Positions 1 through 34,887 of a DNA stretch of 64,000 nt are shown here, in pieces. Position 1 is the first letter of the stretch. Every line of letters starts with the position of its first letter. Origin of the DNA: Erodium maritimum (Eukaryota; Streptophyta; Magnoliopsida; Geraniales; Geraniaceae); contig OY997596.1 in NCBI GenBank assembly GCA_963921825.1, forward strand, positions 7,259,001-7,323,000, read 5' to 3'. The position numbers were made by a program, and so were the translations under genes. Below the pieces are notes generated by a model. The model did no database searches and was not told the DNA's origin. It saw only the letters and a program-made list of their open reading frames with translations.

Positions 1-206
1 CGGGTAAAAACTCATTAAAAGATAAACCAATTAAAATAGTGAAAAAATGATACCTTTTGAGATTAGGTTCCACTTTGCTTGTCATTTTTTGAAAGTTAGG
101 GAGGCTTAAAATCTGTTTCTTTTTTTAAGTTGGGTTTAGTTAAGAGTAAAATGCGTTAAGTTGAGGACACATTGATAAACCACAACCTCTTTAGTTATTA
201 AACATA

Positions 207-636
207 GGGTTATTTTCATCTCAATACCCTAACTATTAATTTTTTTCACCTCAATACCCTATTATTTTTAGTGGCACCTCAATACCCTAGAATGCATTTT
301 TTTTTCACCTCAATACCCTAACTATTTTTAGTGGCACCTCACTACCCTAGAATGCATTTTTTGTGGCACCTCACTACCCTAGAATGCATTTTTGTGACAT
401 TAAAAACTGATTTTTTAAAGAAATTTTTAATACCAATGTCATGCTTTTGGAAATTTGATTGTTAGTGAGGGGTATTATTGACTTTTTAAGTGTTTTCATC
501 CAAAAATGGATGGCAAATTGACGACGGGTATGAAAGTGAAAAAAATGCATTCTAGGGTATTGAGGTGCCACTAAAAATAGTTAGGGTATTGAGGTGAAAA
601 AAATTAATAGTTAGGGTATTGAGGTGAAAATTACCC
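207..636. mobile_element. Mutator-like MITE with long terminal inverted repeats
   Basis: The termini GGGTTATTTTC and GAAAATTACCC are inverted, and the inverted arms extend for roughly 100 bp with a repeated CACCTCAATACCCTA phrase. A 9-bp direct repeat TTAAACATA flanks it exactly at 198-206 and 637-645, which is the target-site duplication size of Mutator-like elements. It sits in the NCRK intron after the last visible exon. A much larger relative with the same ends lies at 42550-44290. No coding capacity. Confidence 0.85.
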
Positions 637-726
637 TTAAACATATAAGATTCAAAAGAATCCACCAAATCTACTCCTTATTAAATTCAAACTTGGTATA
701 TAAGGTACTATTAATAATTTTTTTAC

Positions 727-7763: not shown

Positions 7764-10700
7764 TTACCTAGGATGTGGTCGGGACGGAAATGACAGAGCT
7801 TGTCTGAGTTTCCTCTGCTGTGGTGGATGTACCGGGTTCCCAAACTCCATGGTCTGGGATCGAGTAACCATATCGGTCATGGATTGAGTTTGGTAAGCCT
7901 GCACAAGGCTCGTACTATCAGTAGAATCACCCCGAGCTGTAGCCCTCTGCCAAGAATGTGAACTCAGTCCTGATAGAACATACGCCCTACCAGAAGTCTC
8001 GTACACCCGACGACTTGCCATCCTGTCCTGCATCTCCTTCAGCTCAGCCCCGAGGGCAACACATAGCCGCTCACCCGCCCTGGCAGAGACTGTCTCTGAC
8101 AGGACCTTACGACAGCTCTCCAGGATAGAGACTGCACCTGATAGATCGCCCTTATCAGCAGCCACTCGGGCCTGGCCCATCGCCTCTGCTGCATGAAGCC
8201 TGTTTCGTTGCCTGTCCACTTCAATCGACACTATGGGCTGTCCTGGAACTTCAGGCCTCATGATCTTTACCTCATTGCGTCCTTCCAATGTCACCAGTTC
8301 TTTGGTGATTGGATCCTTGTATAAACACCTAACCTTTAGTAGTGTCATCTCTTCTTTTAACCGATCAACTGGGATATCGATTGTAACCAAAAAGTCCCTC
8401 TCTTCTTCAGCATACAAATCACCAACCTCTATAAACCCCGTTCTTGCATCATCCACAAAACTGGTTTTGTAGCTTCCCGCTTTGATTGAACCAAGTCTCA
8501 AGCTTTGGTCAACGCAGTTGACCTCAACCCGTAATCCCTGCCCCACCACACTCAAAAGCCCTCCGATACACTGAGCGAACGCATCCTGAATCGCGCCTTC
8601 GGCTTCTATGAAAGAAAATGTTCCTCCAGAAATCTCAGAGATAGAGTGCATAGAAGCAGCATCATGGTCTATGCCAAACCCAAATGAATGCACAGGAATC
8701 TTATAGTCATGATCACCATTATGCTGGATAGATTCTGGAACAAGTGATTGATAATCTGCGCCAGTGGGACTCTTTACAGTGTAAGTATCTTGCCCATCAG
8801 ATAAAAGCACAATACTACCAACTGGGTTCTTCCATTTTCGATCCATTATCACCTTAGCACCTTTCTTCAGCCCTTCAGCAATGTTCGTTCCTCCATTGGA
8901 GATCAGAGAATTGATAGCATGCAGAGCCTCATGCTTTCCAGAATCAGTCATTCGACGGAGTGGAAATATTCGGCGAGCTGTGGAGGAGAAGGCAATGACA
9001 GAGAGCCGATCAGATGGGCCAAGGTTCTGTGTCACAAACCCCATTGCTCGTTTCAGTAGGGCAAGCTTTGTTCCTGCCATGCTGCCACTGACATCAAGAA
9101 CTGTCACAAGGTCAATTGGAGCTCGAGAATTTTGCAACTGATTCTGGGTTTCACCGATGTTCTGCAAAGAGCTGGTGAGAGGAGCCTTTAGATGGATGAG
9201 TATGGTGAAGTTATTGTGAGAGGCTGATTTTGGAACAGAGGATAGTTCTGGGTATATTTTGACCTCCAACTTTCCAAAACAATGGTTATCATTGGTAACA
9301 TCTTCAGCTGATGTGCGATCTTTGTCGAGTTCAGGTTGGTGATCTAATTCTTCATCGTCATCAAAATTGCATGGCTCAGAGGGGTTGAATAGAGATGAAG
9401 TTTGTCGCCTTGGATTGAGGCGAGGGGAAGGAAGCCTTTGTGCAATAGGGATCCGAGGATCATCTCGGGCCAAAGGTAATGGGTCAATTTGAGGATTTTG
9501 AGATGGAATTTCCTTCCATTTTGCTCTACACACTGGACAAATTTGGTTTCCATGCTTTACATTAGAGGTAACACAGTGGAAGTGGAAAGAATGGGAGCAC
9601 TCTGCAGTGAAAATGGCATAGCCTTGACCCGACTTCATGGTGGCTAAGCATATTGCACAAGTTTTCTGCAAATCAGAAGGTTAAGATGGTGAGAAACTCG
9701 ACTAGAACTAAATCGGAACTATAGATGAAATTAATAAAAACTAAATAATTGCAGCAAAGTAAGTAACTAAATAGAATAACGCAAAGGTAGAAAGATAATT
9801 GGAAGGTAAGTGATCTAATATTCAACCAGCTGAAACATTGTGCAAATGAAGTTCTTTTTCTGTATAAAAACAAGAATCAAGAGCACCTACAAAATTAATG
9901 CTTTTCAGGTTTATAGAAGGATATCAACACATTTACAATGCAAAAAAACAAAGAACTGGCTTGATCCAGTACTTTGGCTTCTCCTTATATAGTTATAGGG
10001 GTAACTTCATTAACACACCCACTTTGACTTTTGTTTATCAGTAGCACTCACCATAAAGGTCATTTATATCAATAACACACTGTCACCTTTCAATATCATA
10101 AAAAAACACTCAAAAATCAGGTTTCCAGCCAAAAATAGGGGTGAGCAAAACCCACCTCTAGAGAGAGTGTTTTGATGATAGCGAAAGGTGACTGTGTTAT
10201 TGATATGCACTGACCTTTAGGGGGTGTTATTGATAACTAAAGGTCAAAGTGGGTATGTAAATGATATTTTTCCTATAGTTATATCCAATGACAGTGAGAC
10301 ACTTCATTCTCGAATCTCAAGCTTTAAGTACCTGATAAAAACTTTGGTGCACTTAAAAGTTGGCCTTTTGAGACAGCTTATAGATGCAACTTCAGCATAC
10401 TACTCATGGATTTAAATTTTAAACAAGAATATAATGGATGTATTTGTGCATGAAGGTACCACTGAGGTACCCCAAGTACCAAGGTTATGAAGTACCGCCT
10501 CCCAAAAGATTGAATTTCCAAATTATTTTCTTGGGAAACAAACGCCACACATGAGACCCCACTTCAGAAATCCCTAAGCAGGAAAAGGAATAAAATAATG
10601 GAGTGGAACAGATACTAAGAGATCCATGTGCAGCCCCTTCCATATGGCAAGTTCTTCACAACAAAAAAAGCATTTCCAATACTACCCTTATGTCCCCACC

Positions 10701-13570: not shown

Positions 13571-13575
13571 GAGTC
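13571..13575. repeat. Left target-site duplication GAGTC
   Basis: It directly precedes the TG end of LTR1 and is identical to the five bases after LTR3 (31049-31053). Removing the array and one copy restores a continuous GAAGTGTGAGTCCCAGATCG. Confidence 0.9.
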
Positions 13576-14158
13576 TGTCACGCTCCAATTTCAGCGAACC
13601 GAAACTAGGGACGCGAACGTTTAAAAAGTTACAATACTGAAACCTGTTCTCGTTAAATCACTTAAAAGTCAGTTTAGTTCCACAAAAGAATATTATTTAC
13701 ATCTCAAAATAAAATTAGTCCCACACTTGGACAAAAAGGCTAGGTACACGTCACTAGACTCAAGACTCCCGGAACCCGTTTCAAGCTCTTCAAGCTTCAG
13801 AAGCTCACCTAATCCAGCCTGCGAACGGTACCTGTAGGAAAAGAAGCTAGGGGTGAGCGTTCGCTCACCACCACGGATAACAGACTGACTACGGCATAAT
13901 TAGCAGACAATGCCGGTAACACCACAACGACTCAAAAGACACACACACGACCAGTACTTTCCTCAACCGACTCAACACTCGGACACGTTATGTAGACCCC
14001 ACACTACGATCGACGACCTCCTCCAAGACACGACTGACCACACAATACCAAACAAGATCACAAAGGATCGCAAACCGGCTGCTCAGTAACCAATCTCTGT
14101 CTCTCGCCATTTACCGATCATAGACGTGGTCAGGCGGTCGACCTGTCGCGCAACTTCC

Positions 14159-14305
14159 CCCGATCCCAGTCGGGAGGCTAACCCACAACCTCTCCGCTTC
14201 ACCCGATCCCAGTCGGGTGGTTAGCCACACCCGCGCGTCCTTCCCCCGATCCCAGTCGGGGAGCTAGCCCACAACCCCTCCGCTTCTCCCGATCCCAGTC
14301 GGGAG
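14159..14305. repeat. Four hairpins with core CCCGATCCCAGTCGGG in LTR1
   Basis: Hairpins lie at 14159-14174, 14200-14219, 14244-14261 and 14286-14305. The loop TCCCAG and inner stem CCCGA/TCGGG are constant. The outer pairs change together: CA with TG in the second, C with G in the third, CT with AG in the fourth. The same cluster is repeated at +7021 in LTR2 and +14042 in LTR3. Confidence 0.8.
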
Positions 14306-14504
14306 GCTAGCTACACCACACAACCTCCACCAGTATCAAGTAACCAATCACAATCACAAACAAGTTCAAACAGACAGTAACGACACCGGTGACAACTCCA
14401 CAGGCACTCAAGGCCAACAAAACACCGACAACCAAACACAGGTTCAACAACCCTACGGGCCCTCATGGCCACCCAAGACACCAATGGTAAAGTACGGGTT
14501 CACA

Positions 14505-14815
14505 ACCCCACGAGCACTCACGGCCACCCAAAACACCGAAACGACAACACGGGCTCTCATGGCCACCCAAGACTCAGCAATAATTAACACGGGCTCTCAA
14601 GGCCACCCAAACTCGACAATAAATAACACGGGCTCTCAAGGCCACCCAACTCAACAATAAATAATACGGGCTCTCAAGGCCACCCAAACTCAATCAATAA
14701 ATAACAGGGCTCCCAAGGCCACCCAAACTCAATCAATAAATAACACGGGCTCTCAAGGCCACCCAACTCAACAATAAAAGACACGGGCTCTCAAGGCCAC
14801 CCAAACTTCAACAGT
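14505..14815. repeat. Tandem repeat of about 37 bp in LTR1
   Basis: Eight to nine units carry CGGGCTCTCAAGGCCACCCAA followed by a variable AACTCAACAATAAATAA spacer. A related run with CTCCGGGCATGGTCATATGC follows near 14833-14975. The array is present at the same place in LTR2 (about 21526-21836) and LTR3 (about 28547-28857). Confidence 0.8.
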
Positions 14816-16991
14816 AAAAAAAACACACAACAACCTCCGGCATAATCGATGCCTACAACAGTCCTAAGATCACTAGTTTCACAAACAACCTCCGGGCATG
14901 GTCATATGCCTCCAGTACTCCTAATATCGATAAGTTCGCAATCAACCTTCGGGCATGGTCATATGCCTCCAGTAAAACAATTATCACTAAGTTCTTTGCT
15001 CCTACGACACTACTAAGTGTCACATGCATTCTCGTATTCGCTACGTTCCCGTATCATGCATTTCTAATGTTCGATAACCTAAATAACCCACGACACCCCG
15101 GTGTCACATGCAATTCTACGGTTAACTTTCCCTAGTCAGGGCCGAGATCCGGCTACTTTTCCCTACCTCGTAAACAACTCCAAAAGCGCTCCACTAAACC
15201 CGAGATGATCGCAGTCACTCGCCGAGCCTCCCTTTGCCTCGGTCCGCAGCACGATCTAAAAGAACACAGATTTAACTCACTTTTAAACTAGTACGAACAT
15301 GCCGAAATTAAATAAACTCAACGCCCAAACGTAACCCCGACAATGTCGATGACGGACCCTTAAAGGCCCGATTCGCCCGACATGGCGAATCTGCCCGGGT
15401 TTTGTAAATTGCTTTCCGGGGCTCCCCTTCGATCGGAGCCGGACTCTAAATTTAACACGAAGCCCCAAATTAATAACGGTTCCGCCGTTAAGTTAACGGC
15501 TACGATTTATCCAGTTTAAATTCGACAGTTGTCGTTTACACTCGAGCGGGATAAAAGTGGGATTTACGACGGATCGGGTTTGAGTACCCGAGCACCGAAA
15601 CCAGTGCATGTTTTCGAGGCACGGTCCCAATGCACGAATCCCGAGGTCCGATTCAACGGTCCACTTTTGTTCCTTTCTAAACCCAATTAGCAGTCCATTT
15701 TAACCAGGGTTCCAGATTCGTTCAAATGCTCAAGTTTCGTTTTAAAAATCGAATGATTTTACTTCCATTTTATTTTCGAATCTGATTTCAAACTCCTTCC
15801 AATTTTTTTAAAAAAACCCTTTTCTTTTCCATTTAAAACCCTTTCCTTTCCTTTTTCTTTGAACACTGATTTTTCATTTTAGTACCTCTTTCTTTTCAAA
15901 ACAATCCGCTTTTGTTTTAAAACTGATGTTAAAACCGTTTTAATCTAACTTAATTATCCAAATCTAGTCTGCAATTAATCTGATTCAAACCCAGTTTTAA
16001 TTTAAATCCTTTTCATTATCTAAATCTGATTTTCGTTTTAATTTCAGTTTCCTTTTCGTTTTCTTCTTAATAAAAACGTTCCCCTAAATTTCCGAAATCG
16101 TCTTTACCAATTCCGATCAACAAAACAAACCAGGACCAGAAACGCTCGAATCAAACAAGGCACGGAACAGAAACATCGTTAAAAGGGAGAGAGAGAGCTC
16201 GGGTTTTAGACCGGCCTGCCACCGGCGAAGATGCCGGCGACCAAACCCTGTGGGTGAGAAGCTCACCGTGGACAAAGGGAAACGACGGGGTGGTGGAGCA
16301 CGGCGGAGTACGGCGGGGATCCGCCTCGGATCCGGACGAAGACGGGCTGTTCCGTCCCGGATCTGTGCCCGCGTCGGCGAGTCCGTCTCGGCTCGGCCGT
16401 GCACGGCGACGGCGGGACTCAGGGACGCTCGGGCGCGGAGGGGCAAAGGGAGCTCGAAGACGATACTGACGGCGGCAACCGTGAGGGGAGAGGAGACGGT
16501 CGGGGATGACGCCGGCGATGGCGGGCTTGGACGGAAACGGGGAAGGAAGGAGAGATCGGATGGAGGGAGGTGTGGCGGCCGTGTGGTGGTGAGGAGAGAG
16601 GGAGGCGCGGTGGTGCGCGAAGAGAGAGAAGGAGAGAGGTGAGGATCGAGAGGTCGGGGGAGTGCGAAGCAGAAGAGAGAGGGGGTCGGCTGTGAGGGGA
16701 AGAGGGGTGTGAAGTGATGAGAAACCCTAGCTTTTGGCCTTAAGTAGCTTGGGCTACTTGCCATTTGGGCCTCAGGCAGAAAAGGGCTGGGCTGGTTTGG
16801 CTGGGTCCGTCCGGGCCTGGCCTGACTGGCCCATTCCACTTCTATTTTTTATTTATTTATTTTTTACACGACTAAAGAATTAAAACGACTTTCAGCCTCG
16901 CCTTTACCCGAACCGATTTAGATTTCAACCTCGACGTTCCGAACGATTAAAAATTAATTAAATTAACCTTTTTACCGAAGCGGTCTTCACA

Positions 16992-17004
16992 ATCTCCCCC
17001 CCTT
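16992..17004 (-). other. Polypurine tract AAGGGGGGGAGAT
   Basis: On the minus strand these purines immediately precede the TGTGAAGACC start of LTR1, the standard position for priming plus-strand cDNA synthesis. Confidence 0.9.
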
Positions 17005-17008
17005 AAAA

Positions 17009-17028
17009 GAATTTCGTCCCCGAAATTC
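17009..17028. other. Perfect stem-loop beside the polypurine tract
   Basis: GAATTTCG and CGAAATTC are perfect 8-bp arms around a TCCC loop. A very similar GAATTTCG-type stem next to the polypurine tract is, as I remember it, common in Tekay/Del chromoviruses. Confidence 0.75.
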
Positions 17029-17041
17029 AGAACAACGCACT

Positions 17042-17860
17042 TCAGGGGTCGGATGGGTCGGTGTACTTCGCGCGAATCTCGTCCTCGCGTTCCCAAGTCG
17101 ACTCGGCCTCGTGGCGTCGCCACAACACCAGTTCTAAGCGAATAATCTTCCTGCACAGGACCTGCTCTCGTGGATCCCTTTCCCACATCGGTTTCTCCTT
17201 ATACGGGACATCACCCGTTACCTCGACATCTGCCCACTCCTTGACGTACTCAAAACCTCGAAAGGCCCGATACACCGCGGGGCTAACCCGCCTCCGCCGC
17301 GGTTGAAACGCATTAGTCCGTCCTTCGGACTCACCTCCAGGAATACACGACCACAGATTGCTGACTCGAGTGGTCGGCGCCGTCAGTCGACATAACTCCT
17401 GCTGACTCTGCGTGGTCTTCAACCGCTCACGTTTCGGAACGACCGACTCAGCTGTCTCTCGGTCCAATTCTAGACCCACTGAACCCTTATTCCTTACTTC
17501 TGCCCAGCACACGGGCGATCGACCTGGCCTACCATACAACGCTCCGAACGGTGCCATCATGATACTAGCCTGAAAGTTGTTGTTGTAGGAGAACTCGACT
17601 AACCATTCACGAAACCCATCGTGACGTGCCCCATTTCCACCATGCAACCTGCAGTGGTTGTAGTAAACCAGCGGGACGCTGTTGCTCGGCTCTCACCTGC
17701 CGATGAGTGAGGCACCGCGGTACCAAATCCGCGACCGCTCTCCGCATCCCGCTCCACTGGACATGCCACCTGATGTCGCGTTCCTCTTAGTGCCATTCAC
17801 GTGCACTGTTAGACGCGAATGCTGCGACTCTCGCAGCTCGTCGCCTCCGCCGTCACGTGG
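17042..17860 (-). pseudogene. Integrase remnant and chromodomain, body 1
   Basis: The 201-codon open stretch 17042-17647 has an integrase C-terminal segment (LVEFSYNNNFQASI, ALYGRPGRSPVCW, ERLKTTQSQQ) and ends in a chromodomain-like CRKIIRLELVLWRRHEAEST. Chromodomains in this position target insertion to chromatin marks. Upstream, out of frame, are traces of the integrase zinc-binding region (LRESQHSRLTVH) and VRAEQQRPAGLLQP. The D,D-35-E core between them is gone, so no active integrase can be made. Confidence 0.8.
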
Positions 17861-17939
17861 TATGTACAAACCTCTACGATACCGCAACTCCCAAATAGTA
17901 CAACGATCCCAGCCCTCGGCGTCAGTACCGCCGGCAACT

Positions 17940-19090
17940 ATCTCCCGGATCCTTGTCGTCCACAAAAACACCACCACGAATTGATTTTAAAAAAAAACAG
18001 CCAGAATGTACTGTTCATCAGATCCCTGAACGCTGTAGGTGCGTTCGGCAGTTCAAGTCATCACCCAGAACTCGTAAAGCTCGTAGGACGTCCGGAATGC
18101 AGTCCTTGCGACGTCCCCCTCTCGGACTCGCAACTGGTAGTATCCGGATCGTAGGTCGATCTTCGAGAGATACGTCGACCCTCTCAACTGGTCGAACCAG
18201 TCGTCGATTTTTCGACATCGGGCGTCATGTAACCCGGTTCAGTTTCTGTTAGTCCATGCACATCCGAAGCTCTCCACTCTTCTTCTTCACGAAGAGTGCT
18301 GACGCTCCCCACGGCGATGTGCTCGGACTAATAAACCCTTTCTTCCGAAGTTCCTCGAGCTGACTCTTCAGCTCAGTCAACTCGGCTGGCGCGAACCTGT
18401 AAGGCGCCATTGATAACGCTGCCGTTCCCGGTACCAGGTCAATCCTGAACTCCACCTCACGAACTGGTGGCAACCCGCTCAATTCCTTAGGAGAGACCTC
18501 GGGAAACCCCCGTACCCTTCGCGGTAACTCTCGGCTCTGCCCGGCCGACACTTCCTCCACTGCGGACCATGCCGACAGGAGAACCCCTCCACTACTACTC
18601 ATTACATACGACACCTTCGTGTTGCCTACTGACACTGTCACTCGTCGCCTATAGTAGTCGATACGGGCTCGGTACTTCGCCAGCCAATCCATTCCCAAGT
18701 TTACGTCAAAGGTTGTCACTTCGTAAGTATCCTTCCCACGGATACACGCACAAGTTCAATCGCTGTCGATCCTCATGGATCCTCGCAGTCTCTCTGAGAC
18801 CTCGCTCCACTGACGCCGTCGTGCCTACCAACTCTGAACATACCCGACCCTCGGGGTGAGGACTCGATCCAGCATCAGGGCTCTTGAGCCCTCTCTCGAA
18901 CCTCCTGTGTCGGTTCGCTCCTCTAATTCTGCAGGCACGACATACCCTAATCAACACCACACCACCACCAACTAGCGTGTCCAGACGCAGGGGTGGACTC
19001 AACGGCTCTAAACTCAGCCTCGACCTTTCCGCACAACTCGATGATACAAACGAGTGTGACGTCCCGGCATCCAACAGAAATGACGCTCAA
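17940..19090 (-). pseudogene. Protease and reverse transcriptase remnant, body 1
   Basis: The protease begins with LDAGTSHSFVSSS (active-site DTG written DAG), followed by FDVNLGMDWL. Reverse transcriptase starts VEFRIDLVPGTA, then ISPSTSPWGASALFVKKKSG. It continues in other frames with [17 protein letters not shown] and a QFVVVF segment. The region after that should hold the catalytic VDD box, which is reached only after a frame change. In-frame stops follow RMCMD. RNase H is absent. The lesions are shared with body 2. Confidence 0.82.
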
Positions 19091-20581
19091 AGTAGAGACC
19101 GAAAACCACTCCATTAGTCACTCTGGTAAATTCTAGCATCAACCCTCACCCGGTCCTCTATGCATTTACTTATAACTTTCCGCAACCAAACCAGTGTTCG
19201 CTACTCATCCCTTGCGGGAAAGTAGTAAAGGGGATGAGCGTTATGCTCACCTCCACGGACACCCGTTCGATTATGGCATACTAGTAACGCACCAAGGACT
19301 TACCAATCTAACCCGGGCAAACCACTACCTCAAAACCTAATGCCAACCGTCACACTGCTCAAGTCATTAACACCTCAGATGCTCTCTCACGTAAGATAAA
19401 CCTCGAAACGGGGATTATGTTCTCAATTCAGCGACTACTGTTGCTTACAGCCTCAATACCCCAATTACCCGATCCGTAGAGAAATTCCAACGGGGATCCT
19501 ACTTTCATCTCAGCAACCCACTATTGCTCACACCCTTGATACCCTAGTTACTCGATCATGTAGGGAACCTCAAACAACCCACTCACGTGAAGGAAAACCC
19601 CAACCACCCGTTCACGCAAGGGAAAACTCGAATAACCCGTTCACACAAGGGGAAACCTAGTTCGTATGGCGTCACAGCGCACCAACCCTAACCTCTACCT
19701 GGCGAGACTCTCACACTGAGACGCTGTATTACTACCGTAGGTCATCAATGAGTCTCGAACCCAAGACCTCATCCTTTAACACCGAGCTTACGGCCTCTAC
19801 AACCCACAACCGTGAACATCGCCACGCAAAGCCAACACTCAAAATTGCACAAACAAGACGGTGAGAAGGACAGGGGTCACGGACCCGTGACAGACCCCGT
19901 CACGGTTGGGATCACGGTGCCGTGACAAAAACCTAAAATTCGCCAAAATGTTCTGGTCCGTCACGGATCTGTGACAGGATCCGTGATGCTCACGCAGACC
20001 TATTTTCCAAACTCGGTTCCACTCGAATCTTAACCCGTTTTAACCTTAAAATTGGCCTTACACGACACACACGCTTGACCACCAAAACAGCAAACACACG
20101 CGCCACGACTCGCAGACAAATCAAGTCATTCAACCTCAACCAAAACACAAGCCGACACGGTCAAACAACAACACAACAGCACTCGCCCACCGGGCCAACC
20201 AAAATCAAAACCCGCCCACAGGGCCAATCAAATTTTAAAAAATTTCTCCACTTCATTAAAAACCTCAATTCTTGACATGAGGTAGTTACAACCCGGTCTA
20301 GGCGTCCCCGAACTACATTGTACCCACTTGACATCAACACCGTCACGCTCGACTACAGGGGCGCCCCTGAGTCGAGTCGCGAAAGTTTAAAAACATTTCA
20401 CGCAGCCACACACAAACACTGTGCCAGTAACCCCGTACTGCACAAGCACATAACAAAAACAGGACTCTAGTCCTAACGGGTCTACACACGAGTTCCGACT
20501 TGCGTACCCAACGCACGACGGGACTCTACTGACTCGACTCTCCCACCTAATTGACGTGCAGTCCGAGGTGTGAAACCTCGT
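19091..20581 (-). other. Leader/gag position of body 1, no gag recognised
   Basis: The stretch where gag is expected has only short ORFs. Positions 19217-19290 resemble LTR sequence (13845-13905) including a GTGAGC/GCTCAC-type hairpin, which suggests that LTR-like DNA replaced gag. Positions 19876-19975 hold three CACGG palindromes (GTCACGGACCCGTGAC and two relatives). Confidence 0.6.
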
Positions 20582-20593
20582 GCTCTGATACCA
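20582..20593 (-). other. Primer binding site for initiator Met tRNA
   Basis: The minus strand reads TGGTATCAGAGC three bases from the CA end of LTR2. This is the classic plant retrotransposon site complementary to the 3' end of initiator methionine tRNA. Confidence 0.9.
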
Positions 20594-20596
20594 AGC

Positions 20597-23500
20597 TGTC
20601 ACGCCCCAATTTCAGCGAACCGAAACTAGGGACGCGAACGTTTAAAAAGTTACAATACTGAAACCTGTTCTCGTTAAATCACTTAAAAGTCAGTTTAGTT
20701 CCACAAAAGAATATTATTTACATCTCAAAATAAAATTAGTCACACACTTGGACAAAAAGGCTAGGTACACGTCACTAGACTCAAGACTCCCGGAACCCGT
20801 TTCAAGCTCTTCAAGCTTCAGAAGCTCACCTAATCCAGCCTGCGAACGGTACCTGTAGGAAAAGAAGCTAGGGGTGAGCGTTCGCTCACCACCACGGATA
20901 ACAGACTGACTACGGCATAATTAGCAGACAATGCCGGTAACACCACAACGACTCAAAAGACACACACACGACCAGTACTTTCCTCAACCGACTCAACACT
21001 CGGACACGTTATGTAGACCCCACACTACGATCGACGACCTCCTCCAAGACACGACTGACCACACAATACCAAACAAGATCACAAAGGATCGCAAACCGGC
21101 TGCTCAGTAACCAATCTCTGTCTCTCGCCATTTACCGATCATAGACGTGGTCAGGCGGTCGACCTGTCGCGCAACTTCCCCCGATCCCAGTCGGGAGGCT
21201 AACCCACAACCTCTCCGCTTCACCCGATCCCAGTCGGGTGGTTAGCCACACCCGCGCGTCCTTCCCCCGATCCCAGTCGGGGAGCTAGCCCACAACCCCT
21301 CCGCTTCTCCCGATCCCAGTCGGGAGGCTAGCTACACCACACAACCTCCACCAGTATCAAGTAACCAATCACAATCACAAACAAGTTCAAACAGACAGTA
21401 ACGACACCGGTGACAACTCCACAGGCACTCAAGGCCAACAAAACACCGACAACCAAACACAGGTTCAACAACCCTACGGGCCCTCATGGCCACCCAAGAC
21501 ACCAATGGTAAAGTACGGGTTCACAACCCCACGAGCACTCACGGCCACCCAAAACACCGAAACGACAACACGGGCTCTCATGGCCACCCAAGACTCAGCA
21601 ATAATTAACACGGGCTCTCAAGGCCACCCAAACTCGACAATAAATAACACGGGCTCTCAAGGCCACCCAACTCAACAATAAATAATACGGGCTCTCAAGG
21701 CCACCCAAACTCAATCAATAAATAACAGGGCTCCCAAGGCCACCCAAACTCAATCAATAAATAACACGGGCTCTCAAGGCCACCCAACTCAACAATAAAA
21801 GACACGGGCTCTCAAGGCCACCCAAACTTCAACAGTAAAAAAAACACACAACAACCTCCGGCATAATCGATGCCTACAACAGTCCTAAGATCACTAGTTT
21901 CACAAACAACCTCCGGGCATGGTCATATGCCTCCAGTACTCCTAATATCGATAAGTTCGCAATCAACCTTCGGGCATGGTCATATGCCTCCAGTAAAACA
22001 ATTATCACTAAGTTCTTTGCTCCTACGACACTACTAAGTGTCACATGCATTCTCGTATTCGCTACGTTCCCGTATCATGCATTTCTAATGTTCGATAACC
22101 TAAATAACCCACGACACCCCGGTGTCACATGCAATTCTACGGTTAACTTTCCCTAGTCAGGGCCGAGATCCGGCTACTTTTCCCTACCTCGTAAACAACT
22201 CCAAAAGCGCTCCACTAAACCCGAGATGATCGCAGTCACTCGCCGAGCCTCCCTTTGCCTCGGTCCGCAGCACGATCTAAAAGAACACAGATTTAACTCA
22301 CTTTTAAACTAGTACGAACATGCCGAAATTAAATAAACTCAACGCCCAAACGTAACCCCGACAATGTCGATGACGGACCCTTAAAGGCCCGATTCGCCCG
22401 ACATGGCGAATCTGCCCGGGTTTTGTAAATTGCTTTCCGGGGCTCCCCTTCGATCGGAGCCGGACTCTAAATTTAACACGAAGCCCCAAATTAATAACGG
22501 TTCCGCCGTTAAGTTAACGGCTACGATTTATCCAGTTTAAATTCGACAGTTGTCGTTTACACTCGAGCGGGATAAAAGTGGGATTTACGACGGATCGGGT
22601 TTGAGTACCCGAGCACCGAAACCAGTGCATGTTTTCGAGGCACGGTCCCAATGCACGAATCCCGAGGTCCGATTCAACGGTCCACTTTTGTTCCTTTCTA
22701 AACCCAATTAGCAGTCCATTTTAACCAGGGTTCCAGATTCGTTCAAATGCTCAAGTTTCGTTTTAAAAATCGAATGATTTTACTTCCATTTTATTTTCGA
22801 ATCTGATTTCAAACTCCTTCCAATTTTTTTAAAAAAACCCTTTTCTTTTCCATTTAAAACCCTTTCCTTTCCTTTTTCTTTGAACACTGATTTTTCATTT
22901 TAGTACCTCTTTCTTTTCAAAACAATCCGCTTTTGTTTTAAAACTGATGTTAAAACCGTTTTAATCTAACTTAATTATCCAAATCTAGTCTGCAATTAAT
23001 CTGATTCAAACCCAGTTTTAATTTAAATCCTTTTCATTATCTAAATCTGATTTTCGTTTTAATTTCAGTTTCCTTTTCGTTTTCTTCTTAATAAAAACGT
23101 TCCCCTAAATTTCCGAAATCGTCTTTACCAATTCCGATCAACAAAACAAACCAGGACCAGAAACGCTCGAATCAAACAAGGCACGGAACAGAAACATCGT
23201 TAAAAGGGAGAGAGAGAGCTCGGGTTTTAGACCGGCCTGCCACCGGCGAAGATGCCGGCGACCAAACCCTGTGGGTGAGAAGCTCACCGTGGACAAAGGG
23301 AAACGACGGGGTGGTGGAGCACGGCGGAGTACGGCGGGGATCCGCCTCGGATCCGGACGAAGACGGGCTGTTCCGTCCCGGATCTGTGCCCGCGTCGGCG
23401 AGTCCGTCTCGGCTCGGCCGTGCACGGCGACGGCGGGACTCAGGGACGCTCGGGCGCGGAGGGGCAAAGGGAGCTCGAAGACGATACTGACGGCGGCAAC

Positions 23501-24012
23501 CGTGAGGGGAGAGGAGACGGTCGGGGATGACGCCGGCGATGGCGGGCTTGGACGGAAACGGGGAAGGAAGGAGAGATCGGATGGAGGGAGGTGTGGCGGC
23601 CGTGTGGTGGTGAGGAGAGAGGGAGGCGCGGTGGTGCGCGAAGAGAGAGAAGGAGAGAGGTGAGGATCGAGAGGTCGGGGGAGAGCGAAGCAGAAGAGAG
23701 AGGGGGTCGGCTGTGAGGGGAAGAGGGGTGTGAAGTGATGAGAAACCCTAGCTTTTGGCCTTAAGTAGCTTGGGCTACTTGCCATTTGGGCCTCAGGCAG
23801 AAAAGGGCTGGGCTGGTTTGGCTGGGTCCGTCCGGGCCTGGCCTGACTGGCCCATTCCACTTCTATTTTTTATTTATTTATTTTTTACACGACTAAAGAA
23901 TTAAAACGACTTTCAGCCTCGCCTTTACCCGAACCGATTTAGATTTCAACCTCGACGTTCCGAACGATTAAAAATTAATTAAATTAACCTTTTTACCGAA
24001 GCGGTCTTCACA
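20597..24012 (-). repeat. LTR2 (middle LTR), 3416 bp, mosaic
   Basis: At its left end it carries the LTR3 variants (C at 20605, A at 20742). At its right end it carries the LTR1 variants (five-G run and TTTATTTATTTATT, no TA expansion). One private change is A at 23684, where LTR1 has T. Hairpins and 37-bp repeats are as in LTR1 at +7021. Confidence 0.92.
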
Positions 24013-24025
24013 ATCTCCCCCCCTT
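24013..24025 (-). other. Polypurine tract of body 2
   Basis: AAGGGGGGGAGAT on the minus strand, directly before LTR2. The GAATTTCG stem-loop lies at 24030-24049. Confidence 0.9.
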
Positions 24026-24062
24026 AAAAGAATTTCGTCCCCGAAATTCAGAACAACGCACT

Positions 24063-24881
24063 TCAGGGGTCGGATGGGTCGGTGTACTTCGCGCGAATCT
24101 CGTCCTCGCGTTCCCAAGTCGACTCGGCCTCGTGGCGTCGCCACAACACCAGTTCTAAGCGAATAATCTTCCTGCACAGGACCTGCTCTCGTGGATCCCT
24201 TTCCCACATCGGTTTCTCCTTATACGGGACATCACCCGTTACCTCGACATCTGCCCACTCCTTGACGTACTCAAAACCTCGAAAGGCCCGATACACCGCG
24301 GGGCTAACCCGCCTCCGCCGCGGTTGAAACGCATTAGTCCGTCCTTCGGACTCACCTCCAGGAATACACGACCACAGATTGCTGACTCGAGTGGTCGGCG
24401 CCGTCAGTCGACATAACTCCTGCTGACTCTGCGTGGTCTTCAACCGCTCACGTTTCGGAACGACCGACTCAGCTGTCTCTCGGTCCAATTCTAGACCCAC
24501 TGAACCCTTATTCCTTACTTCTGCCCAGCACACGGGCGATCGACCTGGCCTACCATACAACGCTCCGAACGGTGCCATCATGATACTAGCCTGAAAGTTG
24601 TTGTTGTAGGAGAACTCGACTAACCATTCACGAAACCCATCGTGACGTGCCCCATTTCCACCATGCAACCTGCAGTGGTTGTAGTAAACCAGCGGGACGC
24701 TGTTGCTCGGCTCTCACCTGCCGATGAGTGAGGCACCGCGGTACCAAATCCGCGACCGCTCTCCGCATCCCGCTCCACTGGACATGCCACCTGATGTCGC
24801 GTTCCTCTTAGTGCCATTCACGTGCACTGTTAGACGCGAATGCTGCGACTCTCGCAGCTCGTCGCCTCCGCCGTCACGTGG
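24063..24881 (-). pseudogene. Integrase remnant and chromodomain, body 2
   Basis: The 201-codon open stretch 24063-24668 translates to the same protein as in body 1, including ALYGRPGRSPVCW and the chromodomain tail. The same catalytic-core deletion is present. Confidence 0.8.
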
Positions 24882-24960
24882 TATGTACAAACCTCTACGA
24901 TACCGCAACTCCCAAATAGTACAACGATCCCAGCCCTCGGCGTCAGTACCGCCGGCAACT

Positions 24961-26111
24961 ATCTCCCGGATCCTTGTCGTCCACAAAAACACCACCACGA
25001 ATTGATTTTAAAAAAAAACAGCCAGAATGTACTGTTCATCAGATCCCTGAACGCTGTAGGTGCGTTCGGCAGTTCAAGTCATCACCCAGAACTCGTAAAG
25101 CTCGTAGGACGTCCGGAATGCAGTCCTTGCGACGTCCCCCTCTCGGACTCGCAACTGGTAGTATCCGGATCGTAGGTCGATCTTCGAGAGATACGTCGAC
25201 CCTCTCAACTGGTCGAACCAGTCGTCGATTTTTCGACATCGGGCGTCATGTAACCCGGTTCAGTTTCTGTTAGTCCATGCACATCCGAAGCTCTCCACTC
25301 TTCTTCTTCACGAAGAGTGCTGACGCTCCCCACGGCGATGTGCTCGGACTAATAAACCCTTTCTTCCGAAGTTCCTCGAGCTGACTCTTCAGCTCAGTCA
25401 ACTCGGCTGGCGCGAACCTGTAAGGCGCCATTGATAACGCTGCCGTTCCCGGTACCAGGTCAATCCTGAACTCCACCTCACGAACTGGTGGCAACCCGCT
25501 CAATTCCTTAGGAGAGACCTCGGGAAACCCCCGTACCCTTCGCGGTAACTCTCGGCTCTGCCCGGCCGACACTTCCTCCACTGCGGACCATGCCGACAGG
25601 AGAACCCCTCCACTACTACTCATTACATACGACACCTTCGTGTTGCCTACTGACACTGTCACTCGTCGCCTATAGTAGTCGATACGGGCTCGGTACTTCG
25701 CCAGCCAATCCATTCCCAAGTTTACGTCAAAGGTTGTCACTTCGTAAGTATCCTTCCCACGGATACACGCACAAGTTCAATCGCTGTCGATCCTCATGGA
25801 TCCTCGCAGTCTCTCTGAGACCTCGCTCCACTGACGCCGTCGTGCCTACCAACTCTGAACATACCCGACCCTCGGGGTGAGGACTCGATCCAGCATCAGG
25901 GCTCTTGAGCCCTCTCTCGAACCTCCTGTGTCGGTTCGCTCCTCTAATTCTGCAGGCACGACATACCCTAATCAACACCACACCACCACCAACTAGCGTG
26001 TCCAGACGCAGGGGTGGACTCAACGGCTCTAAACTCAGCCTCGACCTTTCCGCACAACTCGATGATACAAACGAGTGTGACGTCCCGGCATCCAACAGAA
26101 ATGACGCTCAA
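24961..26111 (-). pseudogene. Protease and reverse transcriptase remnant, body 2
   Basis: Open frames 25270-25740 and 25727-26095 give the same peptides as body 1 (LDAGTSHSF, FDVNLGMDWL, VEFRIDLVPGTA), with the same breaks. Confidence 0.82.
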
Positions 26112-27602
26112 AGTAGAGACCGAAAACCACTCCATTAGTCACTCTGGTAAATTCTAGCATCAACCCTCACCCGGTCCTCTATGCATTTACTTATAACTTT
26201 CCGCAACCAAACCAGTGTTCGCTACTCATCCCTTGCGGGAAAGTAGTAAAGGGGATGAGCGTTATGCTCACCTCCACGGACACCCGTTCGATTATGGCAT
26301 ACTAGTAACGCACCAAGGACTTACCAATCTAACCCGGGCAAACCACTACCTCAAAACCTAATGCCAACCGTCACACTGCTCAAGTCATTAACACCTCAGA
26401 TGCTCTCTCACGTAAGATAAACCTCGAAACGGGGATTATGTTCTCAATTCAGCGACTACTGTTGCTTACAGCCTCAATACCCCAATTACCCGATCCGTAG
26501 AGAAATTCCAACGGGGATCCTACTTTCATCTCAGCAACCCACTATTGCTCACACCCTTGATACCCTAGTTACTCGATCATGTAGGGAACCTCAAACAACC
26601 CACTCACGTGAAGGAAAACCCCAACCACCCGTTCACGCAAGGGAAAACTCGAATAACCCGTTCACACAAGGGGAAACCTAGTTCGTATGGCGTCACAGCG
26701 CACCAACCCTAACCTCTACCTGGCGAGACTCTCACACTGAGACGCTGTATTACTACCGTAGGTCATCAATGAGTCTCGAACCCAAGACCTCATCCTTTAA
26801 CACCGAGCTTACGGCCTCTACAACCCACAACCGTGAACATCGCCACGCAAAGCCAACACTCAAAATTGCACAAACAAGACGGTGAGAAGGACAGGGGTCA
26901 CGGACCCGTGACAGACCCCGTCACGGTTGGGATCACGGTGCCGTGACAAAAACCTAAAATTCGCCAAAATGTTCTGGTCCGTCACGGATCTGTGACAGGA
27001 TCCGTGATGCTCACGCAGACCTATTTTCCAAACTCGGTTCCACTCGAATCTTAACCCGTTTTAACCTTAAAATTGGCCTTACACGACACACACGCTTGAC
27101 CACCAAAACAGCAAACACACGCGCCACGACTCGCAGACAAATCAAGTCATTCAACCTCAACCAAAACACAAGCCGACACGGTCAAACAACAACACAACAG
27201 CACTCGCCCACCGGGCCAACCAAAATCAAAACCCGCCCACAGGGCCAATCAAATTTTAAAAAATTTCTCCACTTCATTAAAAACCTCAATTCTTGACATG
27301 AGGTAGTTACAACCCGGTCCAGGCGTCCCCGAACTACATTGTACCCACTTGACATCAACACCGTCACGCTCGACTACAGGGGCGCCCCTGAGTCGAGTCG
27401 CGAAAGTTTAAAAACATTTCACGCAGCCACACACAAACACTGTGCCAGTAACCCCGTACTGCACAAGCACATAACAAAAACAGGACTCTAGTCCTAACGG
27501 GTCTACACACGAGTTCCGACTTGCGTACCCAACGCACGACGGGACTCTACTGACTCGACTCTCCCACCTAATTGACGTGCAGTCCGAGGTGTGAAACCTC
27601 GT
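26112..27602 (-). other. Leader/gag position of body 2, no gag recognised
   Basis: Repeats the body 1 leader at +7021: LTR-like segment near 26238-26311 and CACGG palindromes at about 26897-26996. Confidence 0.6.
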
Positions 27603-27614
27603 GCTCTGATACCA
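27603..27614 (-). other. Primer binding site of body 2
   Basis: TGGTATCAGAGC on the minus strand, three bases from the end of LTR3. Confidence 0.9.
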
Positions 27615-27617
27615 AGC

Positions 27618-30600
27618 TGTCACGCCCCAATTTCAGCGAACCGAAACTAGGGACGCGAACGTTTAAAAAGTTACAATACTGAAACCTGTTCTCGTTAAAT
27701 CACTTAAAAGTCAGTTTAGTTCCACAAAAGAATATTATTTACATCTCAAAATAAAATTAGTCACACACTTGGACAAAAAGGCTAGGTACACGTCACTAGA
27801 CTCAAGACTCCCGGAACCCGTTTCAAGCTCTTCAAGCTTCAGAAGCTCACCTAATCCAGCCTGCGAACGGTACCTGTAGGAAAAGAAGCTAGGGGTGAGC
27901 GTTCGCTCACCACCACGGATAACAGACTGACTACGGCATAATTAGCAGACAATGCCGGTAACACCACAACGACTCAAAAGACACACACACGACCAGTACT
28001 TTCCTCAACCGACTCAACACTCGGACACGTTATGTAGACCCCACACTACGATCGACGACCTCCTCCAAGACACGACTGACCACACAATACCAAACAAGAT
28101 CACAAAGGATCGCAAACCGGCTGCTCAGTAACCAATCTCTGTCTCTCGCCATTTACCGATCATAGACGTGGTCAGGCGGTCGACCTGTCGCGCAACTTCC
28201 CCCGATCCCAGTCGGGAGGCTAACCCACAACCTCTCCGCTTCACCCGATCCCAGTCGGGTGGTTAGCCACACCCGCGCGTCCTTCCCCCGATCCCAGTCG
28301 GGGAGCTAGCCCACAACCCCTCCGCTTCTCCCGATCCCAGTCGGGAGGCTAGCTACACCACACAACCTCCACCAGTATCAAGTAACCAATCACAATCACA
28401 AACAAGTTCAAACAGACAGTAACGACACCGGTGACAACTCCACAGGCACTCAAGGCCAACAAAACACCGACAACCAAACACAGGTTCAACAACCCTACGG
28501 GCCCTCATGGCCACCCAAGACACCAATGGTAAAGTACGGGTTCACAACCCCACGAGCACTCACGGCCACCCAAAACACCGAAACGACAACACGGGCTCTC
28601 ATGGCCACCCAAGACTCAGCAATAATTAACACGGGCTCTCAAGGCCACCCAAACTCGACAATAAATAACACGGGCTCTCAAGGCCACCCAACTCAACAAT
28701 AAATAATACGGGCTCTCAAGGCCACCCAAACTCAATCAATAAATAACAGGGCTCCCAAGGCCACCCAAACTCAATCAATAAATAACACGGGCTCTCAAGG
28801 CCACCCAACTCAACAATAAAAGACACGGGCTCTCAAGGCCACCCAAACTTCAACAGTAAAAAAAACACACAACAACCTCCGGCATAATCGATGCCTACAA
28901 CAGTCCTAAGATCACTAGTTTCACAAACAACCTCCGGGCATGGTCATATGCCTCCAGTACTCCTAATATCGATAAGTTCGCAATCAACCTTCGGGCATGG
29001 TCATATGCCTCCAGTAAAACAATTATCACTAAGTTCTTTGCTCCTACGACACTACTAAGTGTCACATGCATTCTCGTATTCGCTACGTTCCCGTATCATG
29101 CATTTCTAATGTTCGATAACCTAAATAACCCACGACACCCCGGTGTCACATGCAATTCTACGGTTAACTTTCCCTAGTCAGGGCCGAGATCCGGCTACTT
29201 TTCCCTACCTCGTAAACAACTCCAAAAGCGCTCCACTAAACCCGAGATGATCGCAGTCACTCGCCGAGCCTCCCTTTGCCTCGGTCCGCAGCACGATCTA
29301 AAAGAACACAGATTTAACTCACTTTTAAACTAGTACGAACATGCCGAAATTAAATAAACTCAACGCCCAAACGTAACCCCGACAATGTCGATGACGGACC
29401 CTTAAAGGCCCGATTCGCCCGACATGGCGAATCTGCCCGGGTTTTGTAAATTGCTTTCCGGGGCTCCCCTTCGATCGGAGCCGGACTCTAAATTTAACAC
29501 GAAGCCCCAAATTAATAACGGTTCCGCCGTTAAGTTAACGGCTACGATTTATCCAGTTTAAATTCGACAGTTGTCGTTTACACTCGAGCGGGATAAAAGT
29601 GGGATTTACGACGGATCGGGTTTGAGTACCCGAGCACCGAAACCAGTGCATGTTTTCGAGGCACGGTCCCAATGCACGAATCCCGAGGTCCGATTCAACG
29701 GTCCACTTTTGTTCCTTTCTAAACCCAATTAGCAGTCCATTTTAACCAGGGTTCCAGATTCGTTCAAATGCTCAAGTTTCGTTTTAAAAATCGAATGATT
29801 TTACTTCCATTTTATTTTCGAATCTGATTTCAAACTCCTTCCAATTTTTTTAAAAAAACCCTTTTCTTTTCCATTTAAAACCCTTTCCTTTCCTTTTTCT
29901 TTGAACACTGATTTTTCATTTTAGTACCTCTTTCTTTTCAAAACAATCCGCTTTTGTTTTAAAACTGATGTTAAAACCGTTTTAATCTAACTTAATTATC
30001 CAAATCTAGTCTGCAATTAATCTGATTCAAACCCAGTTTTAATTTAAATCCTTTTCATTATCTAAATCTGATTTTCGTTTTAATTTCAGTTTCCTTTTCG
30101 TTTTCTTCTTAATAAAAACGTTCCCCTAAATTTCCGAAATCGTCTTTACCAATTCCGATCAACAAAACAAACCAGGACCAGAAACGCTCGAATCAAACAA
30201 GGCACGGAACAGAAACATCGTTAAAAGGGAGAGAGAGAGCTCGGGTTTTAGACCGGCCTGCCACCGGCGAAGATGCCGGCGACCAAACCCTGTGGGTGAG
30301 AAGCTCACCGTGGACAAAGGGAAACGACGGGGTGGTGGAGCACGGCGGAGTACGGCGGGGATCCGCCTCGGATCCGGACGAAGACGGGCTGTTCCGTCCC
30401 GGATCTGTGCCCGCGTCGGCGAGTCCGTCTCGGCTCGGCCGTGCACGGCGACGGCGGGACTCAGGGACGCTCGGGCGCGGAGGGGCAAAGGGAGCTCGAA
30501 GACGATACTGACGGCGGCAACCGTGAGGGGAGAGGAGACGGTCGGGGATGACGCCGGCGATGGCGGGCTTGGACGGAAACGGGGAAGGAAGGAGAGATCG

Positions 30601-30880
30601 GATGGAGGGAGGTGTGGCGGCCGTGTGGTGGTGAGGAGAGAGGGAGGCGCGGTGGTGCGCGAAGAGAGAGAAGGAGAGAGGTGAGGATCGAGAGGTCGGG
30701 GAGTGCGAAGCAGAAGAGGGAGAGGGTCGGCTGTGAGGGGAAGATGGGTGTGAAGTGATGAGAAACCCTAGCTTTTGGCCTTAAGTAGCTTGGGCTACTT
30801 GCCATTTGGGCCTCAGGCAGAAAAGGGCTGGGCTGGTTTGGCTGGGTCCGTCCGGGCCTGGCCTGACTTGCCCATTCCGC

Positions 30881-30921
<41 letters not shown>

Positions 30922-31048
30922 TACACGACTAAAGAATTAAAACGACTTTCAGCCTCGCCTTTACCCGAACCGATTTAGATTTCAACCTCGACGTTCCGAA
31001 CGATTAAAAATTAATTAAATTAACCTTTTTACCGAAGCGGTCTTCACA
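27618..31048 (-). repeat. LTR3 (5' LTR of the array), 3431 bp
   Basis: The longest LTR because of a TA run at about 30884-30918 where LTR1 and LTR2 have TTTATTTATTTATT. Other private changes near that end are a four-G run at about 30700, GAAGATGGG for GAAGAGGGG, GACTTG for GACTGG, and CCGCTT for CCACTT. A one-base loss splits the Pro/Ser-rich ORF that is open in LTR1 and LTR2. Confidence 0.92.
30884..30918. repeat. TA microsatellite in LTR3
   Basis: About 17 TA dinucleotides in the presumed U3 of the 5'-most LTR, absent from LTR1 and LTR2. Confidence 0.9.
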
Positions 31049-31053
31049 GAGTC
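31049..31053. repeat. Right target-site duplication GAGTC
   Basis: Directly follows the CA end of LTR3 and matches 13571-13575. No GAGTC flanks the internal LTRs. Confidence 0.9.
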
Positions 31054-33310: not shown

Positions 33311-33814
33311 GCCCAAACAGTTCGACGCTTCGCTCAAATGATTAAGTTTAAGGTAAACGGCCACGAATACACATCCCCTTATTACTTGAAAGATAAAATT
33401 TATCCTCTTTGGGCTGCATTTATGTAAACAATATCAGCTACACAAACGGCAAAGCAACGGTGTTTTGCTACAAACCAAGAGGAGGCGAGAAAGGATATCG
33501 GACGAGCATTTGGAGTTTTGCAGGCTCGTTTTCATATCATCTCTCGTCCGAGCCGAATATGGGATAGAAACTCACTTGTAGTGATCATGACAACTTGTAT
33601 TATTCTCCACAATATGATCGTTGAGGATCAACGGCGTCCATACCCCACTGATTCGTTTGCATATATTGGTGTCCCGGTCGCACCAACCCGACAAGGACCA
33701 CCACCAGCGGTGAACATCATAGGTATCTCGGCCCAAAGAACCAGGATCCGAGATCCAGAAGTTCATCATTGTCTCCATGCGACCTCATCGGTCAAATTTG
33801 GGTTTAATATGTAG
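33311..33814 (+). pseudogene. PIF/Harbinger-type transposase C-terminal fragment
   Basis: Translation from about 33353 gives VNGHEYTSPYYLKDKIYPLW. It has an in-frame TAA near 33430, then continues QEEARKDIGRAFGVLQARFH and CIILHNMIVEDQRR. These are hallmarks of the plant DDE nuclease related to HARBI1/ALP1. Only the C-terminal third or so is present, with no catalytic Asp residues N-terminal to it and no recognisable terminal inverted repeats. It could also be a retro-copied ALP1-like gene fragment. Non-functional because of the stop and truncation. Confidence 0.72.
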
Positions 33815-34887
33815 ATGACGAGCACAATTAGAGTAATATAATCTAACAATTTGTATTTCATATTTGGAATAAATAAAAATAGTAGTTAGTTTTGGGGTTG
33901 TTTTGTAATTATTAAAAAAATGCAAAACAGTCAAACAACCAGCTCCTACCACTAGTTGTCGATTACTACTGTAGAGCTAGTGGTTTGAAAGAGAGAGGAA
34001 GTGAAAATGTGTTCCTACTACTCCTTCTTACTACTAGCTAGTTGTTTACCACTGATGATGCTCTTATGAAACAATTCCCTTGTTCTTGACTTTCGGTAAT
34101 CAGAACCAAGCTCCTCAACCCTTCTCAATTTGTATCCAAATTCAACAAGAGAAGGGTAAGATCTAGACAGAACCCATTATCGTGATGGAAAAGACGAGAG
34201 GTCTTATGGACTTTTCAAGTATTCCATCACCAATTAGCCTTCCCCTTTACCACTGTTGTTAATCTCCATAACCCATTCTTTTGCTAAACCCAATTAACCA
34301 TCATTTTGAACAATTAAACCCAAAACCTCGTCGGTGACCTTGTAGATGAATGGAAAAAAATGCTTTGATATAAAAGAATTAAAAATAAATCTGATTAATA
34401 AATAAAAGTAAAACATTATTTTGTATATAATTTAAAATCTTATGAAAAATTAATTTAAAAATAATATAAATTAAAAGAAAAGGAATTTTAAAACATTAAT
34501 TATTAAGAAATAAAAGGTTTTAAAATTAATGGCATATTATGAAAATTTGAAAGTAAATGAAGGGCATTATGGATATTTCATAATTTTTAACATATGAATA
34601 TTCAGTGGAAATATTTTCGAAATTTGACTGTTAATGAGGGGTACTATAGACTTTTTAAGGGTTTTGGACGAAAATTTAACTAAAAAAATAATGAGTAACA
34701 AATTGAAAATAATTTTTTTAGGATACTGAAAAAAAAAGGTTGGGGTATTATACTAAAAATAAAAGTTTCGCATCGTACTATTATGATGAAACTTTCCCTT
34801 AAAAAATGTCATGAACTCTTTTTCTGTTTTCCTTTGTAAAAATTTGTTTTAAAATAACGGTTTCACTTTTCAAATTTTAAATTTTAC
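33815..34887. other. AT-rich intergenic DNA with half of a Mutator-like MITE
   Basis: Positions about 34560-34770 carry TTTGACTGTTAATGAGGGGTA and TTGGGGTATTATACT, which match one arm of the 207-636 and 42550-44290 family. The partner arm is missing. The rest is unrecognised. Confidence 0.45.

Follow-up and report, generated by a model that had tools for sequence, protein, structure and literature searches.

The Erodium locus contains a tandem LTR-retrotransposon structure, real in the sequence as given, in which three LTRs alternate with two bodies inside a single target-site duplication. That the whole block derives from one integration event is well supported. The small differences between the LTRs lead us to favour a doubling of the element in place after insertion, by unequal LTR-LTR crossover, although they are not decisive. 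In the passages of a 2025 study of rice that deal with the question (PMC11899658), no decision was reached on whether plant LTR-retrotransposon tandems integrate ready-made or arise at the insertion site. Loci with differing outer LTRs and an intermediate middle LTR can separate these two routes, and the Erodium locus is a candidate for this; aside from its value for ordering the steps, it is an ordinary, already described structure.

Array structure, borders and orientation

Self-comparison of the window (the whole 64,000-nt stretch of DNA that was analysed), which was free of N, revealed three direct LTR copies alternating with two bodies, with an LTR at both ends of the array. The features of the array were as follows:

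13571..13575, no strand: target-site duplication, left copy GAGTC
13576..16991, minus strand: LTR1, 3416 bp, the 3′ LTR of the array
16992..20596, minus strand: body 1, 3605 bp, with the polypurine tract at the LTR1 edge and the primer site at the LTR2 edge
16992..17009, minus strand: polypurine tract adjoining LTR1, repeated next to LTR2 at 24013-24030
20582..20593, minus strand: primer binding site TGGTATCAGAGC, separated from LTR2 by 3 bp and repeated next to LTR3 at 27603-27614
20597..24012, minus strand: LTR2, 3416 bp, common to both bodies
24013..27617, minus strand: body 2, 3605 bp
27618..31048, minus strand: LTR3, 3431 bp, the 5′ LTR of the array
31049..31053, no strand: target-site duplication, right copy GAGTC

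The LTR-to-LTR spacing was 7021 bp and 7021 bp, which agrees with the exact 7021 bp periodicity reported in the first-pass annotation, and this repeat unit consists of 3416 bp of LTR and 3605 bp of body. The extra length of LTR3 is a TA tract. On the plus strand the LTR termini read TGTCACG...CTTCACA.

The 5 bp GAGTC direct repeat at 13571-13575 and 31049-31053 abutted the outermost LTR ends only; by arithmetic, the probability that the 5 bp flanking two exact LTR ends agree by chance is approximately 1 in 1000. The first-pass annotation had placed GAGTC at the outer borders alone, which holds for the LTR-abutting repeat but not for the word, as GAGTC occurs 11 times on the plus strand between 13000 and 32000 and 43 times in the whole window. 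Position 13571, from which the block had been said to run, is the start of the duplication and not of the outer LTR, which begins at 13576. When both neighbours of LTR2 were compared, no duplication flanking LTR2 was found; its neighbours were the inner neighbours of LTR1 and LTR3. To the left of LTR2 is the primer-site side (...GATACCAAGC), identical to the left of LTR3, and to the right is the polypurine-tract side (ATCTCCCCCCCTT...), identical to the right of LTR1. The internal LTR had been described in just these terms, and three LTRs and two bodies within one target-site duplication were likewise confirmed by the self-comparison and the outer-only abutting GAGTC. It is because the outer GAGTC copies match and none is present at LTR2 that a single integration is well supported for the whole block.

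Reading on the minus strand, a polypurine run that ends at the LTR start (TTTTAAGGGGGGGAGAT, followed directly by TGTGAAG) lies to the right of LTR1 and LTR2, and TGGTATCAGAGC lies to the left of LTR2 and LTR3, three bases past the LTR end. As the polypurine run and the primer site lie in this way on the minus strand, the element is on that strand and runs right to left, with LTR3 as the 5′ LTR and LTR1 as the 3′ LTR. We take the run at 16992-17009 (and 24013-24030) to be the polypurine tract, and the primer site is presumably of the initiator-Met-tRNA type; no tRNA was found in the window.

Coding content and affiliation of the element

All 29 listed minus-strand open pieces of at least 35 aa in body 1 were scanned against Pfam, piece by piece. 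The pieces bearing on the coding content of the element were:

17045..17692, minus strand: 216-aa open piece, a degenerate integrase C-terminus with a remnant of the chromodomain region
17221-17382, minus strand: other-frame piece overlapping the 216-aa piece, with a weak SH3_Tf2-1 match (E 2e-4, below cut-off)
17610..17786, minus strand: open piece, placed as the usual domain order predicts, whose Integrase_H2C2 match is very weak (E 0.065, below cut-off)
18056..18238, minus strand: reverse transcriptase (RT) piece, partial RVT_1 match (profile 50-97 of 205; E 6e-5, below the curated cut-off)
18252..18755, minus strand: 168-aa open piece, the end of the protease (RVP_2) and the start of the RT region
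18709..19086, minus strand: 126-aa open piece, the earlier part of the protease (RVP_2), in a different frame from the protease end

The two RVP_2 protease matches, in different frames, were above the cut-off (E 6e-10 and 2e-7). No Pfam match to gag, RNase H or the integrase core was obtained in any of the body 1 open pieces (29/29). Matches to DUF4266 (E 0.037) and Orexin_rec2 (E 0.17) were at chance level and were set aside. Among the 120 of 423 matches listed for the 168-aa protease/RT piece, the best was 70% identical over 93% and belonged to a homologue with RVP_2 and RVT_1, and the organism-named homologues were plant proteins. The 216-aa piece matched gypsy integrase C-termini, the best of the 120 of 1571 matches listed being 41% identical over 83%.

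Each body is structurally whole, from primer site to polypurine tract, but its coding content is not complete. The two bodies had been called complete in the first-pass annotation; this stands for their structure, whereas complete coding bodies were rejected, as the matches in the 29 of 29 pieces were limited to protease, partial RT and a degenerate integrase end. The Pfam scan covered the body 1 pieces and, because the bodies differ at one site, the coding state of body 2 should equal that of body 1. From this content the element is predicted to be a non-autonomous internal-deletion derivative with 3.4-kb LTRs.

The protease and RT were of the gypsy type, and the integrase-end matches come after the RT in the reading direction. 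No Pfam match to a chromodomain was obtained in the 216-aa window piece, even at E 10. Five of the six C-terminal homologues that were scanned scored as Chromo, at E values of 0.0004-0.07 that are below the cut-off, and the 216-aa piece aligned through the Chromo region with three of these five. A chromovirus-like Ty3/gypsy element by descent appears a reasonable assignment, albeit weakly supported; the earlier naming of a chromovirus is carried weakly by the homologues, and the direct scan of the window piece for a chromodomain was negative.

LTR differences and the origin of the tandem

Substitutions were counted over 3393 compared LTR sites, with LTR coordinates given on LTR1. The columns of the TA tract (4 mismatch and 16 gap) and a 1-bp deletion in LTR3 were left out of the counts; in all of these LTR1 and LTR2 agreed against LTR3. 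This revealed 7 substitutions between LTR1 and LTR3, 3 between LTR1 and LTR2 and 6 between LTR2 and LTR3, the outer LTRs being the most different pair, at 99.8% alike by substitutions. Body 1 and body 2 were nearly identical, with 1 difference in 3605 sites (20299 T versus 27320 C). Any two-state site in an alignment of three sequences leaves one of them odd, and information can therefore come only from how many odd sites there are and where they fall. LTR1 was odd at LTR positions 9 and 146 (13584 and 13721), at its left end, LTR3 at positions 3103, 3107, 3129, 3253 and 3263, at its right end, and LTR2 once, at position 3088 (23684). The five private substitutions of LTR3, its private 1-bp deletion at LTR position 3081 and its TA tract at 30884-30918 all lie in its outer (right) 360 bp; five of the eight substitutions fall in a 161-bp stretch of LTR3, beside this microsatellite. 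LTR2 is LTR3-like at its left end and LTR1-like at its right end, and is thereby intermediate between the outer LTRs.

After a crossover, the middle LTR should resemble LTR3 in its left part and LTR1 in its right part, the two outer LTRs should differ more than any other pair, and the bodies should be younger than the LTR split. The observed differences follow this pattern except for the one private LTR2 change at 23684, which needs a later mutation under the crossover view. In such a history, a single insertion, in minus orientation, of a non-autonomous, internally deleted, chromovirus-like Ty3/gypsy element would have created the GAGTC duplication. At a subsequent step, LTR3 in one copy of the locus would have mispaired with LTR1 in the other copy, on the sister chromatid or the homologue. 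A crossover inside the mispaired LTRs would then have left the order LTR1 - body - hybrid LTR - body - LTR3, still flanked by the GAGTC copies of the first insertion, with a solo LTR as the reciprocal product. The crossover, if real, would lie between LTR positions 146 and 3081 (20742-23677 in LTR2). The crossover itself, the partner in it and the sequence in which the steps took place are our inferences.

A simple Poisson comparison using all eight substitutions favoured the crossover model with a younger second step over a simultaneous origin by 10.2 AIC units. This advantage fell to 4.5 with the purine-rich stretch removed and vanished (-0.06) if the LTR3 cluster was treated as one event, in which case the divergences were homogeneous (chi-square p 0.65); with all sites counted they were not (chi-square p 0.039). 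Against the divergence of the bodies, Fisher tests gave p 0.034 for LTR1-LTR3, p 0.063 for LTR2-LTR3 and p 0.36 for LTR1-LTR2. The left/right order of the odd sites alone has a chance of 1/21, assuming independent sites.

The first-pass annotation had read the single duplication as implying one insertion later expanded in tandem, and not three insertions. One integration is borne out, by GAGTC outside and none at LTR2, but a single duplication does not by itself imply later expansion because a preformed tandem cDNA would leave the same mark (PMC1950507, PMC11899658). Expansion in tandem is still the better conclusion, because LTR2 resembles LTR3 at its left end but LTR1 at its right end and the outer LTRs differ the most (7 versus 3 and 6), with support that hinges on how the LTR3 cluster is counted.

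A tandem cDNA formed before integration and inserted as a dimer in one step is, in our judgement, a rather unlikely origin. It could arise by template switching between co-packaged RNAs, as proposed in PMC1950507, by read-through transcription of a one-LTR circle, tandem transcripts from such circles being proposed in PMC11899658, or by recombination of extrachromosomal copies. One duplication and three near-identical LTRs fit a preformed dimer equally well, as do the homogeneous divergences obtained when the LTR3 cluster is one event. In the relevant passages, Sabot and Schulman took the combination of flanking duplications and closely matching outer LTRs to indicate a preformed dimer (PMC1950507), and for rice Morales-Diaz et al. 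2025 held both routes to tandems to be still possible (PMC11899658). However, reverse transcription should give identical outer LTRs (PMC1950507), the middle LTR possibly being distinct, and here no two LTRs differ more than the outer pair, with LTR2 intermediate. A dimer made by template switching should have its outer LTRs as the most similar pair, and they were instead separated by 7 substitutions against 3 and 6, which are small numbers. The lack of homogeneity with all sites counted also argues against it.

We consider improbable an assembly artefact in which a body present only once was doubled through an LTR-internal join between the two haplotypes of an ordinary element. If LTR3 from one haplotype had been misjoined to LTR1 from the second, LTR2 would be expected to look the same and the bodies to be about 1 SNP apart, but there was no direct sign of misassembly, the window being without N, and comparable tandems were confirmed by spanning long reads in rice (PMC11899658) and by PCR for maize TRIMs (PMC4717578). 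Two independent adjacent insertions fused by recombination, or an element nested in the LTR of another, were rejected as highly improbable: PMC1950507 attributes the great majority of the complex elements then known to fusion of neighbouring independent insertions, but fusion leaves no flanking duplication (PMC1950507) and should leave differing outer 5-bp repeats where those here match, nesting should leave an internal duplication where LTR2 has none, and the bodies differ at just 1/3605 sites.

Returning to doubling in place, the interval from 146 to 3088, which is free of substitutions in all three LTRs, was unmatched in 200,000 uniform placements of eight sites. For this reason either the outer end of LTR3 represents a tract of conversion or a hotspot of mutation, or the cores of the LTRs have been homogenised. 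One crossover does not explain the interval, and conversion is probably needed too. An upper limit of 25% has been given for the share of plant LTR pairs with potential conversion (PMC7251063). The locus might, tentatively, be a frozen record of in-place tandem formation, with a chimeric middle LTR, outer edges that retain differences from before the duplication, and approximately 2.9 kb of LTR core homogenised by repeated exchange or conversion. If that record is true, the post-insertion route would operate without retrotransposition machinery, even where an element has lost its coding capacity and its LTRs are very long. With assumed rates, the 7 LTR substitutions would give an age of approximately 0.08-0.15 Myr; we place no weight on this figure, since some changes may have been lost to conversion.

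Comparison with known tandem LTR-retrotransposons

The layout of three LTRs and two bodies is already well described and has been called common in plants, and the locus is a further example. In the passages on tandems in PMC11899658, Nipponbare rice has 28 clear tandems, of which 10 carry perfect 5-nt duplications, gypsy elements make up most of the rice tandems, and IDENTAM tandems are given for Arabidopsis, almond and cotton. Like the rice TLI1 and TLI2 and the IDENTAM tandems of that study, the Erodium locus has two internal regions, three LTRs with the middle one in common, and one short duplication; the LTRs and bodies of TLI2 are 99% alike, and near-identity is likewise seen here. Each of the 28 rice tandems selected in that study has conserved coding domains, whereas the Erodium bodies are largely degenerate, and 82% of the gypsy tandems among those 28 are Tekay, whereas the Erodium element is placed only as chromovirus-like. 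The rice study, in those passages, could not order the steps; the Erodium LTR differences lean one way.

The Triticeae Angela and the rice and maize complexes of Sabot and Schulman 2007 (PMC1950507) similarly have three LTRs, two cores and one 5-bp duplication. In the Angela-type complexes the outer LTRs are highly alike and template switching was proposed (PMC1950507); the outer LTRs of the Erodium locus are as noted 99.8% alike, yet are its most different pair. Tandem TRIMs, including Wukong and Cassandra (PMC4717578, PMC4528315, PMC7215508), are also tandems like the Erodium locus. Unequal crossing over was suggested for Wukong (PMC4528315) and is among the mechanisms discussed for Cassandra (PMC7215508), while the passages on PbTRIM concern solo LTRs and ectopic exchange and not tandems. 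TRIMs are miniature (Wukong is 532 bp, PMC4528315), in contrast to the Erodium unit of 7021 bp with its 3.4-kb LTR.

The same layout was recorded in an A. thaliana census with LTRtype (PMC5379124), which gave 10 LTR-IN-LTR-IN-LTR elements against 474 LTR-IN-LTR and 883 solo-LTR elements. This one census agrees with the earlier statement that two-body arrays are rarer than solo LTRs (10 versus 883). For barley, PMC5333098 cites a haploid genome content of about 4.3 x 10^3 structures with three LTRs. That such arrays can yield further copies or solo LTRs, as had also been stated, is supported by one rice locus with tandem, single and solo-LTR alleles (PMC11899658).

Repeats and variants within the LTRs

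Internal tandem repeats with periods of approximately 39, 43 and 57 bp (14154–14994 in LTR1) were found in every LTR of the array, and their position was identical across LTR1, LTR2 and LTR3 (3/3). A perfect TA tract (30884–30918) was present only in LTR3. It was adjoined by a cluster of five substitutions that were private to LTR3; together, the tract and this cluster look like a conversion tract or a mutation hotspot.

Right flank of the array

Between 31064 and 31462 a 195 bp unit occurred twice in tandem, with 98% matches. This repeat pair, which began 10 bp past the right copy of the target-site duplication GAGTC, is a small tandem duplication in the flank and is separate from the array.

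Surrounding genes and other mobile elements

The region around the array is gene-bearing, and the RING/VWA open frame lay approximately 4 kb from it.

Genes and other mobile-element pieces in the window
655–1410, minus: protein kinase gene pieces, left
7767–9680, minus: long open frame of 638 aa, RING and VWA domains, weak WAV3_C match
33428–35967: Plant_tran transposase fragment, then zf-RVT piece
52142–54169, plus: Copia-type element pieces, Retrotran_gag_2 above the Pfam cut-off, partial integrase core below it
55777–56967, plus: protein kinase gene pieces, right

The zf-RVT piece that followed the Plant_tran fragment is of a type occurring in reverse-transcriptase elements.
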